Source: Mariprofundaceae bacterium
GTDB lineage: Bacteria; Pseudomonadota; Zetaproteobacteria; Mariprofundales; Mariprofundaceae
Assembly (NCBI GenBank): GCA_015488115.1
Contig: WFOK01000022.1
Location: 1-36,444 of the forward strand
DNA: 36,444 bases
Direction: 5' to 3'
Below the pieces are notes generated by a model, which saw only the letters and a program-made list of their open reading frames with translations, did no database searches and was not told the origin of the DNA. This document shows, in pieces, positions 26,627-36,077 of this stretch. Made by a program: the position numbers and the translations under genes. Position 1 is the first letter of the stretch. Each line of letters starts with the position of its first letter.

Positions 26627-27292
26627 TCAGTCGAAAAAGCGCGTGAACGCATGCACGTCTTCGCGGGGTGTTCGATAGCTGTTGGCTGGCGCAGCCGGAT
26701 CCTCGTAGCCCAGCGCCATGCCGCACAGAAGGAGCAGGTGCGGATCATAGCCAAGCTCATCCCGGACGATGTCGGGATATTCCGCCAGCGCGGCCTGGGG
26801 GCATGTGGACAGCCCCTCGTCCACGGCGGCCAGCATCAGGGTCTGCAGAAACATGCCATAATCGATCCACGATCCCCTGGCCAGTCGTCCATCGACGAAG
26901 AAGAACAGCATGACCGGGGCGTCAAACGCCCTGTAATTGGCGGCCCATTGGGCGCGGCGCAGCTCAATGTCTCCACGCTGGATGTTCAACGCCCGGTAGA
27001 GCTGCATGCCGCAGGCAAAGCGCCGCTCGCGGTAGGGAGACGGCCAGTTGTCAGGGTAGTAGGCATAGTCCATGCGGCTCGGTTCTCCCTGCTCGAAGGC
27101 CCGGGTCAATCGCCGTTGCAGCCGCTGTTTCTTGCGTCCCGTCACCACGGCTACGAGCCAGGGCTGCGTGTTCGCCCCGGATGGCGCATGTCGGGCAAGA
27201 TCCAGCAGCTTCTCGATCTGGGCGCGGGAGACGGGTCTGTCGACATAGGCCCGAACGGACTTGCGGCGCAGGATGGCCTCACGGAGTTCCAT
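26627..27292 (-). CDS. Nitroreductase-family FMN oxidoreductase
   Basis: The 221-residue protein has the FMN-binding pattern of the nitroreductase superfamily: ILRRKSVRAYVDRPVSRAQI at the start, LARHAPSGANTQPWLVAVV, IDYGMFLQTLMLAAVDEGLS, and GMALGYEDPAAPAN near the end. Members reduce nitro compounds, quinones or flavins. ATG 27292 gives the typical MELREAILRRKS start. The open frame further upstream has no homology and crosses into the bcs promoter region. purN follows closely, and no functional link is evident. It differs from the nitroreductase domain of the fusion protein at 1343-2554. Confidence 0.9.
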   Translation of the reverse strand: MELREAILRRKSVRAYVDRPVSRAQIEKLLDLARHAPSGANTQPWLVAVVTGRKKQRLQRRLTRAFEQGEPSRMDYAYYPDNWPSPYRERRFACGMQLYRALNIQRGDIELRRAQWAANYRAFDAPVMLFFFVDGRLARGSWIDYGMFLQTLMLAAVDEGLSTCPQAALAEYPDIVRDELGYDPHLLLLCGMALGYEDPAAPANSYRTPREDVHAFTRFFD

Positions 27293-27415
27293 GGCCGGGA
27301 ATGTAAGATTGGCCGCCTGCGCATGCAAGCGCGCCTTCCATGAGGAAATGCGAAAATCCCAAGCCATCGCTTGAGCAGTTTCGTCTATCTTTTTGATTTT
27401 TCTGGGCGGGAAAGT

Positions 27416-27443
27416 TTGACAAGCCGGGATTCTGTGCTTTACT
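27416..27443 (+). promoter_or_regulatory. Predicted promoter of the bcs operon
   Basis: The perfect -35 TTGACA (27416-27421) is followed by a 16-bp spacer and TTTACT (27438-27443), a four-of-six -10. The predicted start is near 27450, about 40 nt ahead of the bcsA GTG. Confidence 0.5.
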
Positions 27444-27454
27444 TGTTCCAGAAT

Positions 27455-27470
27455 TGTGACCTGGATCACA
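27455..27470. promoter_or_regulatory. CRP/Clp-type binding site in the bcsA leader
   Basis: TGTGACCTGGATCACA matches the CRP-family consensus TGTGA-N6-TCACA at all ten half-site positions. It lies just downstream of the predicted transcription start and ends five bases before the bcsA ribosome site. A position centred near +13 would fit repression or roadblock rather than class I/II activation, if the promoter call is right. Confidence 0.7.
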
Positions 27471-27490
27471 GGGCCAGGAGGGGAATCGAC

Positions 27491-29794
27491 GTGTTTGGGC
27501 GATTGCTTCATACGATCAAAAGGCACATGCCGTTCTTTATCTGGGCCCCCGGCGCCGCGTTGCTGGTCTATATCGCCGGGGTTGACCTTTACCTTTCCGA
27601 GCAATTGATTCTTGCGGTCATGTGCGTGCTTGTCATGGTGATCTGCTGGTGGCGTTATGTGCATACGCTGGACAATCATTACACGCTCAGGCTTTCGCGC
27701 CTGCTGCTCATGGTTATTGCAGGCTTCATGGCCGTACGCTACATCATTTGGCGCTTCGAGTATTCGATTCCCTGGTATGAGGACACCCTGTCGGTCACCT
27801 GTGCCCTGACGCTGCTGTTTGCCGAATGTCTAGCCGTTGCACTGTATTTCAGCGGCGCCTTCGTCAATCTTCATCCCCTGCGGCGCGAACCTCAGCCCAT
27901 TGATTTGAAGGATCCGAATCTGCCTACGGTCGACGTGTTCGTGCCCACTTATAACGAGGATCCCGAACTGTTGCGCACGACCTTGCTGGCTGCCACGGAC
28001 ATGATCTATCCCCGTGACAAGCTCAGGGTCTATCTGCTGGATGATGGCGGCACCCAGGCCAAGTGCGAACAGCCAGGCAAGAAGGGGGAGCAGGCCCGGC
28101 TCCGGCGCAAGGAGCTGCAGGACCTGTGCTTCGAGGTGGGCTGTTTCTACCTGACGCGCAAGGACAACCGGGACGCCAAGGCGGGCAATATCGATGCCGC
28201 CCTGGCAAGGACCGATGGCGAATTCATCGTCATTTTCGATGCTGATCACATTCCGACGAACGATTTTCTGAAGAACACGATCGGCACCCTGCTTGCCGAC
28301 GAAAAGAAGGCCTTCGTGCAGACCCCTCATTTCGTGATCAACCAGGATCCGTTCGAGAAGAACCTGCGGGCCGACCGCGAGTTTCCGAATGAGGCCGAAA
28401 TGTTCTACACGATGAACCTGCGCGGCATGGACAACTGGAATGCTGGATTCTTTTGCGGCTCGGGCGCGGTCATGCGTCGCAAGGCCTTGGAGGATGTCGG
28501 CGGCATGCTCACGGACACGATCGTCGAGGATGCCGAGACCTCGATCGAGCTGGCCAGGCGCGGCTGGAAGGCCGCCTATCTGCATCAGCCGATGCTTTGC
28601 GGGCTGAACTCCGAGAGTACCGAGGCCTATGTGCATCAGCGGCAGCGTTGGGGTACGGGCATGACGCAACTGCTGTGGGAGAAGAACCCGCTGTTCGTGC
28701 GCGGGTTGAACATCGCCCAGCGGGTCTGCTACATGAATTGCATCCTGTTCTGGCTGTTTTCCATCGCGCGCATCATCTTCATCGTATCGCCGCTGCTGGC
28801 GCTGCTTGGCGGCATCACGCTGTTCGCGGCGCCGCCGATTGAGATTCTGCTTTACATGGTGCCCTACCTGATCGGTCTCGGACTGGTCATCAACATGCTT
28901 TATGGACGGGTCCGATGGCTGTTTGTCTCCGAGATCTATGAAACGTTGACGGCCGTGTTCCTGGTCAAGAACGTGATCAAGACCTTGCTATTTCCGAAGC
29001 ATGAGCCATTCATCGTGACCCCGAAGGGCGAAGTGCTGGAGTATGACAAGCTTTCCTACCTGGCCCCGCGCTTTTATGTCCTGATCGGGTTGCAATTCAT
29101 CGCCATGGGTGCCGGCTACTACCAGCTTTCGACCGATCCGACGACACTGAATTCGGTGACGTTCTCGATGGGATGGAATCTCTACAACATGATCTTCACG
29201 CTGGCTGCGCTCGGCGTGTTGATCGAGCGCAGGCAGGTGCGCGCCCGGCCCAGGGTGCCCATCCATGAGATGGGCAAGGTCAAGTTCGGTGAGCAGTTCA
29301 TGCCCTGCGAGATCATCGACATGACCGAGGATGGCGCCCTGCTGAAGCTGCCCGGCTGGATGGGCAGGCTTGATGCCAAGGAAGGACAGTTGGAGTTTGC
29401 GCAAAGCCATATCGCCAGCGACGAGCTGTCCCTGACCAGGGTGCTGGACAATCTGAGTCGCGTGGGCTTCAAGGTCGTGTCCGTGCGTACGCAAAAGGAC
29501 AAGAAGAAGGAGCATCTGCTGGTTTCGGTCAAGTTTGATTACGAGGACGAAACGCAGCGCCTGGCCGTGATATCCTATGTGTATGGAAATTCGAGCCGTT
29601 GGCGTGAAATGCTCAAGAGCCGCAACAAGCATTCGCGCATCATGCAGGGCATGGTGTTCGTCACGCGCGCGGCCTACCTTGGCCTTGTGCACATTGCCAT
29701 GGCCTTCAAGGGGCTTCATCATGTTCTGTTGGCCTTCAAGTTGCTGTTGCAGAGGAAAAAGGCTCCAAAAGCTGTTCAGGAGGGGAAAGCATGA
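27491..29794 (+). CDS. bcsA: Cellulose synthase catalytic subunit with PilZ domain
   Basis: This 767-residue inner-membrane GT2 enzyme polymerises UDP-glucose into cellulose and extrudes it. Catalytic signatures in order are LLDDGG (~184), FDADH (~250), QTPHFVINQDPF, TIVEDAETS (~343-351; most relatives have TED), QRQRWGTGM (~383) and the gating loop FIVTPKG (~507). Hydrophobic helices flank the GT domain. A C-terminal PilZ domain has RQVR (~581) and DMTEDG (~610), the c-di-GMP-binding RxxxR and D/NxSxxG regions. GTG 27491 has AGGAGGGG at 7-nt spacing; ATG 27527 is a weaker alternative. bcsB overlaps the stop (ATGA). No bcsQ or bcsEFG genes are adjacent. Confidence 0.96.
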   Translation: MFGRLLHTIKRHMPFFIWAPGAALLVYIAGVDLYLSEQLILAVMCVLVMVICWWRYVHTLDNHYTLRLSRLLLMVIAGFMAVRYIIWRFEYSIPWYEDTLSVTCALTLLFAECLAVALYFSGAFVNLHPLRREPQPIDLKDPNLPTVDVFVPTYNEDPELLRTTLLAATDMIYPRDKLRVYLLDDGGTQAKCEQPGKKGEQARLRRKELQDLCFEVGCFYLTRKDNRDAKAGNIDAALARTDGEFIVIFDADHIPTNDFLKNTIGTLLADEKKAFVQTPHFVINQDPFEKNLRADREFPNEAEMFYTMNLRGMDNWNAGFFCGSGAVMRRKALEDVGGMLTDTIVEDAETSIELARRGWKAAYLHQPMLCGLNSESTEAYVHQRQRWGTGMTQLLWEKNPLFVRGLNIAQRVCYMNCILFWLFSIARIIFIVSPLLALLGGITLFAAPPIEILLYMVPYLIGLGLVINMLYGRVRWLFVSEIYETLTAVFLVKNVIKTLLFPKHEPFIVTPKGEVLEYDKLSYLAPRFYVLIGLQFIAMGAGYYQLSTDPTTLNSVTFSMGWNLYNMIFTLAALGVLIERRQVRARPRVPIHEMGKVKFGEQFMPCEIIDMTEDGALLKLPGWMGRLDAKEGQLEFAQSHIASDELSLTRVLDNLSRVGFKVVSVRTQKDKKKEHLLVSVKFDYEDETQRLAVISYVYGNSSRWREMLKSRNKHSRIMQGMVFVTRAAYLGLVHIAMAFKGLHHVLLAFKLLLQRKKAPKAVQEGKA

Positions 29795-32391
29795 GTCATC
29801 ACTGGAAGATCGGAATTATCGCATGCGCGTTGCTCGCATGGCCTTGTTGCGCAAACAGCGCTGATGCACCCAGCGGCCCGGCGCCGGCAGCGGCCGCAAG
29901 CATGCAGCCGGCCGAAAAAGCTTCCCCGGCAGCTATGGCGTCAGAGACATCCGCGGTCAAGAAGGCCGAGACCGCGGCAAAGGCTGCTGCCGACAAGAAG
30001 GTCCCGGGGGCGGCCCAGGAGTCTGAGGTCAAGGCGCCGGCCAAGCTAGCGACGGAGAAGGCCGTGGCTCAGCCAGGGTCGGCCGGAAACGAGGGTTCCA
30101 AGCAGGCCGAGTCGAAGAAGGCCCGGGCCGAAGACAAGCAGCCTGCTGCAAAGGCCGCAAAGAAACAGCCTGTCAAGCCCAAGCGCGTGTATGTGCCCGC
30201 CGATGTGCCGGCCCAGGAGCTCAAGGCGGTCAGCGTCCGCCGCAGCATGCGCGATTTCATCCGCAACCATGCGCGCCGTTTCATCGTGCTTCGCCAGTCC
30301 GAGGCCACCTATGCCATCAATGTGCCCGTTTCCTATCGGATCGAGCCCTCGAAGATCAAGGCACATATCGTGTTCACGAACTCCAATGCCCTGCTCAAGG
30401 GACGCTCGCAGATGCGTCTGCGCTGGAACGGGGGCGTGTTCGCCCAAGCGCCGCTGGACCCTTCCTTTCCTGATGGCATGATCGATGTCACCGTGCCGCT
30501 CGAGCTCGTGACCAGCGGCCAGAACCAGTTCACGATCGATGTCTCGCAACATTATCTCTCCGAATGCGAGGACCCGGGCAGTCCGGAGTTGTGGACCATG
30601 GTGGACATGGAAGCATCCTACATCGAACTCGAGGGCAAGATGCGTCCCGTTCAGCCGACCCTGCGCAGCTTCGACAATCTGCTTTCCTCACTCGACTGGA
30701 GCGATCTGCATGTGACCATGGTGCCGCTGAGCAAATCGCCAGAGCATCTGCATGCGGGCACCCTGCTTGCCGAGAGCCTGGCCAATCGCGCCGGAGAGCA
30801 ACATGTCATCATCGACAGCGCCGAGCTCGGGCAGACCGTGGGCAGCACGGCCATCGGGCATGATCTGGTGGTCTTTGGCACCTATGAGGAGGCTGAAGCC
30901 ATGCTTGGCCCGATCGAGCCCAAGGGCGGTGCCAGGGGACATATCCTGGTGCGCGCCAGGCAGAATGATCCGGGGCATTTCCTGCTCGCCGTGCTGGGCA
31001 AGACCAAGCAGGATGTGGTCAAGGCCGCCTCCGCGTTTGCGTGGGCCACACTGCCGCTTTCCGATGAGGCGACCATGGATGTCTTCGACGTGCAGGTTCC
31101 AAGCGCCATGGCCTATTCCTCCCGCCATGCGGTGCAGGAGGGGCGGGAATACAATTTCGCCGACCTGGGCTTCCATACGACAACCCTGAAGGGGCTGCAG
31201 GATGCGGCCACCGTGACCTTGTGGCTGCCTCCGGATTTGTTCGCCAAGACGCATGCCCAGGTCGAGATGCGCCTGCACTTCAGCTATGGCGCGGCCCTGC
31301 GTCCGGATTCGGTGCTGAACGTGTATCACAACGGGCAGTTCTTGCGCGGTATCTCGCTTTCCGACCCTCGCGGTCTGCTGGTCCGGGACTATCGCATCTG
31401 GATTCCCCTGCATGCGTTCCGACCAGGCCTGAACGAGTTCCGCTTTGAAAGCCGCATGCGGGCGAACACGGGCACGAACTGCACGACGGGCAACACGGAC
31501 AATCTGCTCATGACCCTGTTTGATGATTCAACGTTCACGATCCCTGAAACCTCGCACTATGTGGCCATGCCCGATCTGAACTATCTCGTCAATACGGGGT
31601 ATCCCTATCTGGGTGACTTGGGCGACACGCCCGTGATCCAGATTCCGAACCTGAAGCCCCATATGCTGGCCAGTGCATGGACGCTGGCAGCCAAGCTCGG
31701 TCAGCTCAAGGGCAGCCCGATTCAGTCGTTGACCGTGTCGAACACGGATATGGGCGCGACCAATGTCATCCGTATGGACGTGTTTTCCAACATCGATGAC
31801 CGCATCTGGGAGGCTGCTCCTGTTCACCTGGGCAGGAAGGGCTTCGTGAACCATCCCAGCCTGGCCAATCCGAGCGTGCTGGGGCACGACCCGCTGACAT
31901 GGCGCAAGAAGCTGAACATGTTGCTCGAAGGCTCGGAATATGAGTCGGGTGTGGAAGGTCCGCGGTATCACAGCGTGGGTATCCAGCAGTCCTTCAGCCT
32001 GAAGAATCAGGGCGTCATGATGCAGTTCGAAAACCCGCGCGTGGACAACGGGACGATGACCCTGCTGGTTTCCGACAGCCAGGAACAGCTTGTGGATGCG
32101 ATCCACAGCCTGATTCGACTGTGGCCGCAGATGCAGGATTCTCACGGCGATCTGCTTCTCTGGGGAACGGCCATCGAGCAGGGCAGACCGGATTTTTGGT
32201 CGGCCGAGGTCGGGTCGCATACCTACCATATCGGCAGCATGCCCTTCTTGGAGAGGATCACGTACTTCGCGATTCAGTACCCTGTCTTCCTGCTGATCGT
32301 GCTGTTCATCGTCTTCGTCTTCATGGCCATTCTGACGAGGGCGCTGCTCATCATGTACCGTCACCAGGTGCATCCGCATATCGAGCCATGA
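29791..32391 (+). CDS. bcsB: Cellulose synthase periplasmic subunit BcsB with Ala/Lys-rich N-terminal extension
   Basis: This 866-residue periplasmic protein is anchored by one C-terminal helix (~835-857, VFLLIVLFIVFVFMAILTRA) that docks to BcsA. A signal peptide covers ~1-24. Residues ~25-135 are a low-complexity Ala/Lys/Glu-rich segment (such as AVKKAETAAKAAADKK and AAKAAKKQPVKPKR) not typical of E. coli BcsB. From ~140 the conserved carbohydrate-binding and flavodoxin-like domains follow (INVPVSYRIEPSKIKAHIVF, DVSQHYLSECEDPG, FRFESRMRANTGTNC). Start and stop couple it to bcsA and, 10 nt on, to bcsZ. Function within the BcsAB synthase is secure; the extension's role is unknown. Confidence 0.95.
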   Translation: MSHHWKIGIIACALLAWPCCANSADAPSGPAPAAAASMQPAEKASPAAMASETSAVKKAETAAKAAADKKVPGAAQESEVKAPAKLATEKAVAQPGSAGNEGSKQAESKKARAEDKQPAAKAAKKQPVKPKRVYVPADVPAQELKAVSVRRSMRDFIRNHARRFIVLRQSEATYAINVPVSYRIEPSKIKAHIVFTNSNALLKGRSQMRLRWNGGVFAQAPLDPSFPDGMIDVTVPLELVTSGQNQFTIDVSQHYLSECEDPGSPELWTMVDMEASYIELEGKMRPVQPTLRSFDNLLSSLDWSDLHVTMVPLSKSPEHLHAGTLLAESLANRAGEQHVIIDSAELGQTVGSTAIGHDLVVFGTYEEAEAMLGPIEPKGGARGHILVRARQNDPGHFLLAVLGKTKQDVVKAASAFAWATLPLSDEATMDVFDVQVPSAMAYSSRHAVQEGREYNFADLGFHTTTLKGLQDAATVTLWLPPDLFAKTHAQVEMRLHFSYGAALRPDSVLNVYHNGQFLRGISLSDPRGLLVRDYRIWIPLHAFRPGLNEFRFESRMRANTGTNCTTGNTDNLLMTLFDDSTFTIPETSHYVAMPDLNYLVNTGYPYLGDLGDTPVIQIPNLKPHMLASAWTLAAKLGQLKGSPIQSLTVSNTDMGATNVIRMDVFSNIDDRIWEAAPVHLGRKGFVNHPSLANPSVLGHDPLTWRKKLNMLLEGSEYESGVEGPRYHSVGIQQSFSLKNQGVMMQFENPRVDNGTMTLLVSDSQEQLVDAIHSLIRLWPQMQDSHGDLLLWGTAIEQGRPDFWSAEVGSHTYHIGSMPFLERITYFAIQYPVFLLIVLFIVFVFMAILTRALLIMYRHQVHPHIEP

Positions 32392-32401
32392 GGCCGGTTG
32401 C

Positions 32402-33442
32402 ATGTGGGGGAGGCGCCTGATGGCGGGGGCCGCGGCAATGTTGGCCCTGGTCTCCTGTGGGCCGGGGCCGACATCGGTTCCGGCTCCGGACGCGCATGAC
32501 TGGGTCGCGTACAAGGCGCGCTTCATCATGGATGATGGGCGCGTCATCGATGATGCCCAGCAGGGGGTGTCGCACTCGGAAAGCCAGGGTTACGGCATGC
32601 TGCTGGCCGTTGCCTTCGACGATGCGGAAACGTTCCGCCGGATCTGGCAATGGACACGCAGCCATCTTCAGGTCCGAAACGATTATCTGTTCGCCTGGTT
32701 GTGGGATGCCGAGACCGGTCAGGTGGCGGACACGAACAATGCTACTGACGGGGATGTGCTCATTGCCTGGGCCCTGTTGCGGGCCGCCCGCCACTGGTCC
32801 GATAATGCCTATGAGATTGCGGGAAGGCAGATCCTGAAGTCCTTGGCGTCGCTTCAGGTTCGCGTCAACGGCAGGGTGTATCTGCTTCCCGGTCAGCAGG
32901 GCTTTTTGTCCAGCGACAAGCTGGTGCTCAATCCCTCGCATTTCGTGCTGCCGGCCTTCCGCGAGTTTGCCGACCTTGATACTTCGGTCGACTGGCAGGC
33001 CTTGTATGCCAATGGCGTGTTCCTGATCGAGAGCAGCGCGACGGGTCCATGGCATCTGGCTCCGGACTGGGTCGATTTGCGGCAGGGAGGTCGCCCTTGG
33101 GCTGAACGCAGGCCTTATTTCGGATATGATGCGGTGCGCATACCCTTGTATGCGTCCTGGGTGGGCGAGCGCGACCTGCTGGATGCCTATATCAGGCTGT
33201 GGCGGCAGTTTTCGATGCGGGAGCTGCAGCCGGACTTGGTGGATCTGACCAGTGGCTTCGTGCATTTGCGAGAAGGGCCATCCGCCGTGCGCGCCATTTG
33301 GCAGCTGTGCGAGCATGTTAGCGGGCATGAGAGCACCGTGCCCAACATGGACTGGGGGCAGGAGCCAAGTTATTACGATGCCAGCCTGTACCTGCTCGTC
33401 AGGCTGGCTTGGTACGAGTTCGATTTGACGAATGAACAATGA
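32402..33442 (+). CDS. bcsZ: Glycoside hydrolase family 8 endoglucanase BcsZ, lipoprotein-type signal
   Basis: The 346-residue cellulase of the bcs operon trims or releases misassembled glucan in the periplasm. GH8 features are the general-acid Glu in SHSESQGYGMLLAVAF (~55), NNATDGDVLIAWALLRAA with the catalytic Asp (~110-120), and RPYFGYDAVRIPLYASW. The N-terminus WGRRLMAGAAAMLALVSCGPG has a lipobox (LVSC), so it is probably a lipoprotein, unlike the soluble E. coli BcsZ. ATG 32402 keeps the Arg-Arg n-region; ATG 32420 has a better ribosome site but would lose that charge. The last 11 nt overlap the open frame leading into bcsC. Confidence 0.94.
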   Translation: MWGRRLMAGAAAMLALVSCGPGPTSVPAPDAHDWVAYKARFIMDDGRVIDDAQQGVSHSESQGYGMLLAVAFDDAETFRRIWQWTRSHLQVRNDYLFAWLWDAETGQVADTNNATDGDVLIAWALLRAARHWSDNAYEIAGRQILKSLASLQVRVNGRVYLLPGQQGFLSSDKLVLNPSHFVLPAFREFADLDTSVDWQALYANGVFLIESSATGPWHLAPDWVDLRQGGRPWAERRPYFGYDAVRIPLYASWVGERDLLDAYIRLWRQFSMRELQPDLVDLTSGFVHLREGPSAVRAIWQLCEHVSGHESTVPNMDWGQEPSYYDASLYLLVRLAWYEFDLTNEQ

Positions 33443-33452
33443 GGGAATGGGG

Positions 33453-36077
33453 ATGAAGTCTATGATGAACATCAAGCATCTTGCCGCGGCTGCCGCTCTG
33501 GTCGGCATGCTTGCCGCTACGGCACCCGCGCAGGCGGCCGATCAGCAGGTGACCGTGAAGAGCACGAACCGTTCTTCCAACATCGATGTCCAGCGCACGA
33601 CGCGATCGATTGTCAAGCCGACGCGGGGCCAGAGCAAGGCCGAAGAAAAGCCCGCTCCGCGCGCTGCCGAGGCCGTGAAATCCGTCCAAGGCAAGGAAAT
33701 CATCGATGAAGGCGTGATCTGGGCACTGATCCGCAATGAGCAATTCGATTCGGCCTACCGAACGATCGACAAGATCAAGGCCGAGCATCCACAGTGGAAG
33801 CCAGCGGACAAGCTCGTGGAAGTGCTGGAAAACAATCATGCCGACTATCTGATTCGAGAGGGGCAGAAGCGCAGGCGCTGGTCTCAGGTCGTCGAAGCCG
33901 CGAAGCGCTACCCTGCTAGGTTCGACTGCGAGCACAACTATCGTCGTCTGGCTCTCGCGGATGCCTATGTGCATCAGCACCGCATCCATGATGCCAGGAG
34001 GGTTTATGATGCCGTCATCGCGCAGTGCGGCGAACGTCAGCGGGTCGAGGCGCTGGATCATGCCGCATCGAGGCTGACGGAAACCGAATTCCATCGCCTG
34101 TACATCAGGGCGAGCAAGAAGCCGATGTCGGCCAAGGCGAAATCACGCATGGCGGCGATTGCCGTCGGCAGCGCGCTGAGAGGCAAGCCGACGGCCGAGG
34201 AGCTGGCCAGGCTGACCGAGCAGGAGTCGGTTTTGCTGCAGTCGAAGGATCCGTCCGTGGCCAATACGCTGGCCTGGGCCAATCTGGAGCACGGGAAGCC
34301 CGAACATGCGCTCGAGCTATTTCGCAAGAGCCGTTTATGGCGGGACAATGATGAGGCCTTGAAGGGCGAAATCCTCTGCCTCCATCGTCTGCATCGTTCG
34401 CGGGAGGCCCTGGATCTGATCCAGGCCGAACAGGGGCGGATCGAGCAGCACGACATGCAGGCGGACATCCTGCCCTTGAAGGCGGCCGCCTGTGGTGATC
34501 TGAAGGATTATGCCTGCCAGGCCGAGTCGCTGCAGGCCCTGGAAAAGATCCGCCCGCTGGATGAAGGTGAGCGAGAAGCACTGGCCTGGGCGCATTTCCA
34601 ACTGGGGAACTATGCGGATTCGGAGCAGTTGTTTGAAGGCCTGTACCGTGCACATCCGAGCGAGAATCACGCCCAAGGTCTTTACCTGAGCCTGCAACGT
34701 CAGGGCAAGCAGGATCGGGCAAGGGACCTGGCCGGCGAGCTTGGCGGTCCGCTGCGCGGGGAATTGGCCAAGGAAGAGGGCATCAAGCGCAGCAGCGAGG
34801 CGGCGCAGCTTTTCGGGCGGGATTTGTTCCATGCAGCCCAGGATGTCGACGAGGGTTATGATGCCTCGTTGCGGAATGTGGACTCGACCTATGTGCGATT
34901 CGGCGGCATGAACCGCATCCGCTCTGCGCTCAATGCCCAGCCGATGATTCACACGATGAAGCTGAGCAAGTTCTTTGGCGAGGGAGGCTACTATTTCGAC
35001 AGGACGCATTCGCTGCGCGTGCGTGTCGAGCGTACGTTCATCGACGCAGGAACGCCTCTGGCCGAGGCAGTGAGCATCGGCACGCTACCGGCGCTGCCCG
35101 TGCCATTGCTCGTGCCGGCCAATGCGATTCCGACCTACCTGAACGGGTATGAATGGGATCTGGAGTATCGCAACGAGGGCTGGGACAGCTATTACGCCAG
35201 CGTGGGCCAGGGCTTCATCGGCGCAGGCCTTCGGGCCACCTGGAAGGGGCGGCTGGGCCTGGTTCATCAGTATGACAAGGGCTTTGCCCAGGGCGAGCTT
35301 TACCGTCAGCCGCACCGGGAGAAGCTGCTGCCCTATGTCGGCTTGCTCGATCCCTATACAGGCAGGTACTGGGGCAGGGTGTCGAAAAACGGGCTTGTCC
35401 TTCGCGGCTACCATGGTCTGTATGACGATATCCCGGCCACGTTTGATGAGCGCACCGGTCTGGGCATCTATTACGAGGTCGGGGCCGAGGTGCTCAATGG
35501 CGTGGGCGTGAAGACGAACAACCACTATTTCGTTGGGCTGACCCTGCCCTGGAGCTTTGACGTGAGCCTGCCCTGGGGCGCGTTGGTCAGCGTTGGTCCG
35601 CAGATTCGGTACGAACACTACAAGCAGGATCAGGACCACTTCACCTATGGCCACGGCGGCTATTTCAGTCCGCAGTGGTCATTGATCACGGGCGTAAACC
35701 TGTTTGCCGAGTCCCATGAGGGCGAGGTCGTCAACTACATGTTCAATGGCTTTGTCGGCAAGCACCAGCACAGGCACAATGCTTCGCCGATGCTGCCGTT
35801 CACGCCGGGCGTGCCGACCATCGAGGGTGTCTTCTATCCGGGCGGCCGGGTTTCCGACTGGGTTTACAACCTGCGCTTCACGGCCGTTGTCGAGCTCAGC
35901 GAGCATGCCCAGTTGGGAGGAGAGGTCAGCTATGCCCGCAGCAGCTTTTCACAGGCTGGACAGCCCTTCGCGACCAAGGATCTGGCCTATTTGCTGTATC
36001 TGACATGGAACTTCGATCCGCGGCAGGGCACGTTGAGAATGGATCATGCTCCCTATGGGGTGCAGCCGCTGTTTTAG
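33453..36077 (+). CDS. bcsC: Cellulose synthase outer-membrane export subunit BcsC (short form)
   Basis: The 874-residue protein has a signal peptide (~1-28), a basic linker (~30-75), a periplasmic TPR region (~80-450; ALIRNEQFDSAYRTIDKIKAEHP, WANLEHGKPEHALELFRKS, AWAHFQLGNYADSEQLFEGL) and the C-terminal BcsC beta-barrel (~510-874; YYASVGQGFIG, HGGYFSPQWSLITG, ending in aromatic PLF). It is clearly shorter than E. coli BcsC (~1150 residues), mainly in the TPR part. ATG 33453 has AGGGA at 6-nt spacing; the upstream ATGs 33432 and 33447 are too close to any ribosome site and overlap bcsZ. It completes the bcsA-B-Z-C set, and a terminator hairpin follows. Confidence 0.94.
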   Translation: MKSMMNIKHLAAAAALVGMLAATAPAQAADQQVTVKSTNRSSNIDVQRTTRSIVKPTRGQSKAEEKPAPRAAEAVKSVQGKEIIDEGVIWALIRNEQFDSAYRTIDKIKAEHPQWKPADKLVEVLENNHADYLIREGQKRRRWSQVVEAAKRYPARFDCEHNYRRLALADAYVHQHRIHDARRVYDAVIAQCGERQRVEALDHAASRLTETEFHRLYIRASKKPMSAKAKSRMAAIAVGSALRGKPTAEELARLTEQESVLLQSKDPSVANTLAWANLEHGKPEHALELFRKSRLWRDNDEALKGEILCLHRLHRSREALDLIQAEQGRIEQHDMQADILPLKAAACGDLKDYACQAESLQALEKIRPLDEGEREALAWAHFQLGNYADSEQLFEGLYRAHPSENHAQGLYLSLQRQGKQDRARDLAGELGGPLRGELAKEEGIKRSSEAAQLFGRDLFHAAQDVDEGYDASLRNVDSTYVRFGGMNRIRSALNAQPMIHTMKLSKFFGEGGYYFDRTHSLRVRVERTFIDAGTPLAEAVSIGTLPALPVPLLVPANAIPTYLNGYEWDLEYRNEGWDSYYASVGQGFIGAGLRATWKGRLGLVHQYDKGFAQGELYRQPHREKLLPYVGLLDPYTGRYWGRVSKNGLVLRGYHGLYDDIPATFDERTGLGIYYEVGAEVLNGVGVKTNNHYFVGLTLPWSFDVSLPWGALVSVGPQIRYEHYKQDQDHFTYGHGGYFSPQWSLITGVNLFAESHEGEVVNYMFNGFVGKHQHRHNASPMLPFTPGVPTIEGVFYPGGRVSDWVYNLRFTAVVELSEHAQLGGEVSYARSSFSQAGQPFATKDLAYLLYLTWNFDPRQGTLRMDHAPYGVQPLF

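Follow-up and report, generated by a model that had tools for sequence, protein, structure and literature searches.

The cellulose synthase operon of an uncultured Mariprofundaceae bacterium (Zetaproteobacteria) carries a perfect CRP-type palindrome in the start region of its promoter, and a CRP-family protein of the cAMP type probably represses bcsABZC from this operator, with c-di-GMP acting on the enzyme BcsA; we put the probability of this reading at about 0.6. The window—i.e., the whole 36,444-nt stretch of DNA that was analyzed—comes from a 1.69-Mb, 98.65% complete draft genome (G000), and the operon has the order bcsA-bcsB-bcsZ-bcsC. The features of the window are as follows:

26627..27367, − strand: divergent nitroreductase gene (PF00881), probable start near 27367
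27416..27421, + strand: −35 hexamer TTGACA of the bcsA promoter, read from sequence; TTTGACA identical in G000, G001, and G002
27433..27445, + strand: conserved block TGTGCTTTACTTG with the −10 region, identical in the same three species
27455..27470, + strand: CRP-type operator TGTGA-CCTGGA-TCACA, centre 27462.5, about +11 to +13 relative to the predicted +1
27476..27481, + strand: Shine-Dalgarno AGGAGG, read from sequence
27491..29794, + strand: bcsA, cellulose synthase catalytic subunit with PilZ domain (PF07238), GTG start, 767 aa (TIGR03030, 745 bits, over cut-off)
29791..32391, + strand: bcsB (PF03170, 2.4e-80)
32402..33442, + strand: bcsZ, GH8 endoglucanase (PF01270, 1.3e-57)
33432..36077, + strand: bcsC, TPR and outer-membrane barrel (PF05420, 3.3e-33)

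The original prediction placed a perfect TGTGA-N6-TCACA between the promoter and the ribosome site of the operon, and this is what we found: TGTGACCTGGATCACA lies on the + strand at window positions 27455-27470 with 0 mismatches, and the GTG start of bcsA follows 20 nt past its end. Within TGTGCTTTACTTG, the −10 element may be either TTTACT (27438-27443), with an extended TG and a spacing of 16 from TTGACA, or TACTTG (27440-27445), with a spacing of 18, and from these spacings the +1 is predicted at about 27450-27452. A strict sigma-70 promoter scan called no promoter at bcsA, and the −10 is non-canonical and weak. The distance from the operator centre to the start of the −35 is 45.5-46.5 bp in all three species. 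At or shortly after the predicted +1, an operator would occupy a repressing position, acting through a steric or roadblock block. We favored repression because activation from this operator would need a transcription start inside bcsA, the 20 nt between operator and start codon leaving no room to activate a downstream promoter. Activation of bcsA from the operator in the genus of G000 was dropped on the same ground. The roadblock repression that had been proposed from a position downstream of +1 therefore stands as probable, given the predicted start and a geometry conserved in three species.

We then compared the bcsA promoter in the three species of the genus with a bcs operon, i.e., G000, G001, and G002. 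They agree at every base of TTTGACA (7/7) and TGTGCTTTACTTG (13/13) and at 5/5 and 4/5 of the half-site bases, while the spacer (2/12), the gap (1/9), and the central N6 (2/6) are variable; in the flanks, identity falls to 2/20 over the 20 nt downstream and 36/160 upstream. Since the −35, the −10 block, and the half-sites are kept while the flanks and the neighbor gene differ, the palindrome does not look like a product of chance, and with this footprint as the strongest evidence we conclude from sequence that it is very probably a genuine CRP-family operator of the bcsABZC promoter, as had been proposed. The closest named bcsA relatives (81-83% identity) are MAGs labeled Zetaproteobacteria and Mariprofundaceae. 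Upstream of bcsA, the position held by the nitroreductase gene in G000 is taken in both of its relatives in the three-species comparison by a lipoprotein-like gene (tblastn), and the bcs operon is kept. Because the neighbor on the other side changes among relatives and the operator stays, we assign the operator to bcsA; the nitroreductase gene was ruled out as its target, being absent at the same position in both relatives with the operator. The sequence upstream of bcsA in G041 and G047 yielded no CRP-type palindrome in which both half-sites are intact, and in several other draft genomes the bcsA start was out of reach, the matches being partial or cut.

The genome holds four perfect sites, two of them in open reading frames (an ilvD-like gene, L004, and a prepilin, L002) and two intergenic, one at bcsA and the other in the promoter of cyc2 (L001:1501-1516; G000:C7:11783-11798). 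Cyc2 is defined by the motif AXPXFAR[Q/K][T/Y] upstream of CXXCH and by PXL downstream (PMC8406198). The gene behind the second intergenic site encodes a product with AIPAFARQTGAACLSCH and, four residues on, PTL, and thus matches cyc2, the Fe(II) oxidase gene, by motif; Pfam and NCBIfam gave no match for this product. When 30 cyc2 genes of the order were searched for [A/T]GTGA-N6-TCAC[A/G/T], 17 sites were detected in 5.9 kb of upstream sequence, compared with 1 in the remaining 113.5 kb of these loci. The palindrome is present in several genera of the Zetaproteobacteria, at loci L001, L056, L059, L100-L105, L107, L110, L113, and L121-L125. In genera g1, g7, and g10, it is preceded by TTGAC and followed by a −10 that reads CAnnGT or similarly; in g14 it occupies the same place despite an altered −35, and in two g4 genomes it lies downstream of the core promoter. 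By geometry, a protein bound at any of these positions should get in the way of polymerase. The same cyc2 core, TTGACC-N17-CAnnGT-TCG, is retained in several genomes that have no site (g5, g12, and G006 of g4). Some 15-60 bp ahead of the cyc2 site, L096-L105 also show a recurring GACACAC followed by TGTGnC. Many genomes have this block before the cyc2 promoter, whether or not they have the CRP-type site; it may represent a second operator, and a comparable GTGTCATTTTGCAACA block stands before the rpfF-like gene.

Further candidate targets came to light, the extent of the regulon being what the pattern searches revealed. A site lies just before a DSF-synthase (RpfF)-like gene in G000 (L127:1501-1516; G000:C15:36501-36516) and G003 (L054:1501-1516), in both cases downstream of a conserved TTTGAC promoter, an arrangement as at bcsA; the product scores 214 bits against NF053515, whose cut-off is 550, and is over the cut-off of NF006452. 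Other one-mismatch sites are mostly in or near coding sequence and bear no sign of conservation. Upstream of a PAS-GGDEF-EAL gene in G000 there is a one-mismatch site, TGTGACCCAGCTCACT (L131:1501-1516; G000:C51:28342-28357), about 29 bp before GATAAT, which would suit class II activation and is a possible link from cAMP to c-di-GMP. One-mismatch sites are also found between metG-like and DUF2062-like genes (named by eye) in G001 (L135:1501) and G002 (L140:1501), a candidate for a further conserved target.

Could the bcsA palindrome nonetheless be a chance match without function, or serve another purpose at this locus? At the G+C of this genome, its 1.69 Mb should contain about 0.75 perfect matches, and two of the four observed sit in coding sequence, as chance would allow. 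However, three species keep the half-sites but differ in the central bases and flanks, and the pattern is enriched over a reversed-pattern control in the genus (across four genomes, 10 perfect sites against 0; 72 versus 28 with one mismatch allowed), so that chance is scarcely credible as an explanation. Alternatively, CRP might activate bcsA through an unrecognized promoter, or the site might serve the nitroreductase gene, which is divergent here. A similar site does occur at about −64 of bcsA in G022, a genome of another genus (bcsA 58% identical), where a one-mismatch palindrome (L014:1383-1398) precedes a TTGACG-N17-TACAAG promoter by 29.5 bp; this position would suit activation, and the sign of the site type may, on this single case, have changed between lineages. 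In the genus of G000, by contrast, transcription activated from the site would have to begin within bcsA, the site comes after the conserved TTGACA and −10 block, and it remains in two relatives with a different neighbor gene. We therefore consider activation, or service to the nitroreductase gene, improbable.

The remaining alternatives concern the identity of the regulator and its ligand. The check attached to the original prediction, a search of the genome for CRP-family regulators, yielded six cNMP-domain matches, and two of the proteins read, C44 and C19, join a cNMP domain with a Crp-type HTH. In a third cNMP-domain protein an HTH was not apparent on reading; of the other matches, two share a 360-aa frame and the third is in a frame of 755 aa. 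The two candidates are as follows:

G000:C44:14907-15587, − strand: CRP of the cAMP type (PF00027 and PF13545 over cut-off)
G000:C19:33612-34256, − strand: second CRP/FNR protein, with a Crp-type HTH and equivalents of R180/E181/R185, without the cAMP pocket

The C44 protein has all the residues by which E. coli CRP contacts cAMP (G71, E72, R82, S83, R123, T127, and S128) as well as R180, E181, and R185, which read TGTGA (E. coli CRP numbering). It has matches in 65 of the 78 genomes of the order, and the orthologues fetched from 30 loci, one without its C-terminal end, all agree at the cAMP-pocket and DNA-reading positions covered. Because it scores 96 bits against the NCBIfam equivalog NF008732 (CRP), below the cut-off of 266, we call it a cAMP-type member of the CRP family rather than the equivalog of E. 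coli CRP. The genome also encodes a HAMP and class III cyclase protein (PF00211, 110.6 bits), whose motifs DKYIGD and NVASR we take to be of the adenylate type. A cAMP-CRP pathway is therefore plausible in this genome, which gave no positive sign of a Clp-type one. In Acidithiobacillus, CRPs reportedly conserve the cAMP residues poorly (PMC6416229). The original prediction had raised a Clp-like CRP homologue that represses bcs until released by c-di-GMP, which would then act on both transcript and enzyme. The PilZ domain in BcsA, the Clp-type regulators known in Xanthomonas (review), and the abundance of c-di-GMP signaling genes in Zetaproteobacteria (PMC8250860) would agree with such a regulator, but the full cAMP pocket of the C44 CRP, kept in the fetched orthologues, and the class III cyclase argue against it. 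We regard c-di-GMP binding by this protein as unlikely and Clp-like control of bcs as very unlikely, and the Clp-type reading was not kept as the best explanation since the cAMP pocket is complete. A different possibility is that the C19 protein is the repressor and answers another signal, e.g., redox or sulfur state. It has a Crp-type HTH with the R180/E181/R185 equivalents, and it was found in 50 of the 78 genomes of the order, including two drafts (G018 and G076) with cyc2 sites in which the CRP was not detected. Conversely, there was no match to it in two drafts with sites and the CRP, G002 (97% complete, with perfect sites at bcsA and cyc2) and G041, and no shared palindrome that might be a self-operator precedes its own gene. 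The distribution across drafts is thus indecisive between the two proteins, and we judge C19 a rather unlikely repressor.

We return, then, to repression by cAMP-CRP, for which we infer the binder (CRP), the ligand (cAMP), the start site, and the sign from sequence. The cAMP-bound C44 protein would sit over the transcription start and the first transcribed bases, centered at about +11 to +13, where the bound dimer would overlap RNA polymerase and hinder its binding or escape. High cAMP would then keep the cellulose genes off, while at low cAMP the bcs operon would be transcribed and c-di-GMP would switch on the PilZ-bearing BcsA. In favor of this reading we counted the same kind of operator on cyc2 core promoters and, in two species, near the start of the DSF-synthase-like gene; against it we counted the weak −10, the R180/E181/R185 shared by C19, and the G022 site at about −64. 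As for the double switch of the original prediction, its enzyme arm is plausible, given the PilZ domain in BcsA, but relief of transcription by c-di-GMP does not fit the intact cAMP pocket; the likelier pair is cAMP-CRP acting on the transcript and c-di-GMP acting on the PilZ-bearing enzyme.

One repressor, probably sensing cAMP, may control both bcs and cyc2. More broadly, we tentatively propose, at somewhat less than even odds, a zetaproteobacterial cAMP-CRP circuit that represses cyc2 and also, within the genus of G000, the bcs operon through core-promoter operators, with the DSF-synthase-like gene in the same regulon. If so, a single cAMP signal would set iron-oxidizing, matrix-forming life against dispersal, with a sign opposite to that of c-di-GMP. 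An operator common to cyc2 and bcsA suggests which regulator and which second messenger may be involved, and hence how iron oxidation might be controlled, a hypothesis that can now be tested by gel shift and reporter assays without culturing the species.

Some CRP operators of E. coli coincide with +1 or lie downstream of it. In Vibrio cholerae, cAMP-CRP represses the vps biofilm polysaccharide genes (as cited in PMC4686702). What these systems share with the arrangement described here is a CRP consensus site and, if repression holds, a matrix polysaccharide under negative control and a steric block at the start region; the differences are that the target here is bcsA itself, in an uncultured iron oxidizer, that the same kind of operator is found on cyc2, and that repression is deduced from site position. 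The CRP/FNR-Kh and -Kx proteins of Komagataeibacter likewise govern cellulose production, with a positive effect exerted at least via bglAx, and a direct bcsA operator is not described in the passages of that report on these regulators (PMC4686702). Clp of Xanthomonas campestris, a c-di-GMP-responsive CRP homologue (review), is also of the CRP family, and the DSF-synthase-like gene here has a site as well; unlike Clp, the C44 CRP retains the whole cAMP pocket, and its genome encodes a class III cyclase. Finally, Bcam1349 of Burkholderia cenocepacia, which the original prediction had drawn as a parallel, is a CRP/FNR regulator on bcs promoters but no mechanistic match, since c-di-GMP enhances its binding and it activates (PMC3584217), whereas the position of the site here suits repression.
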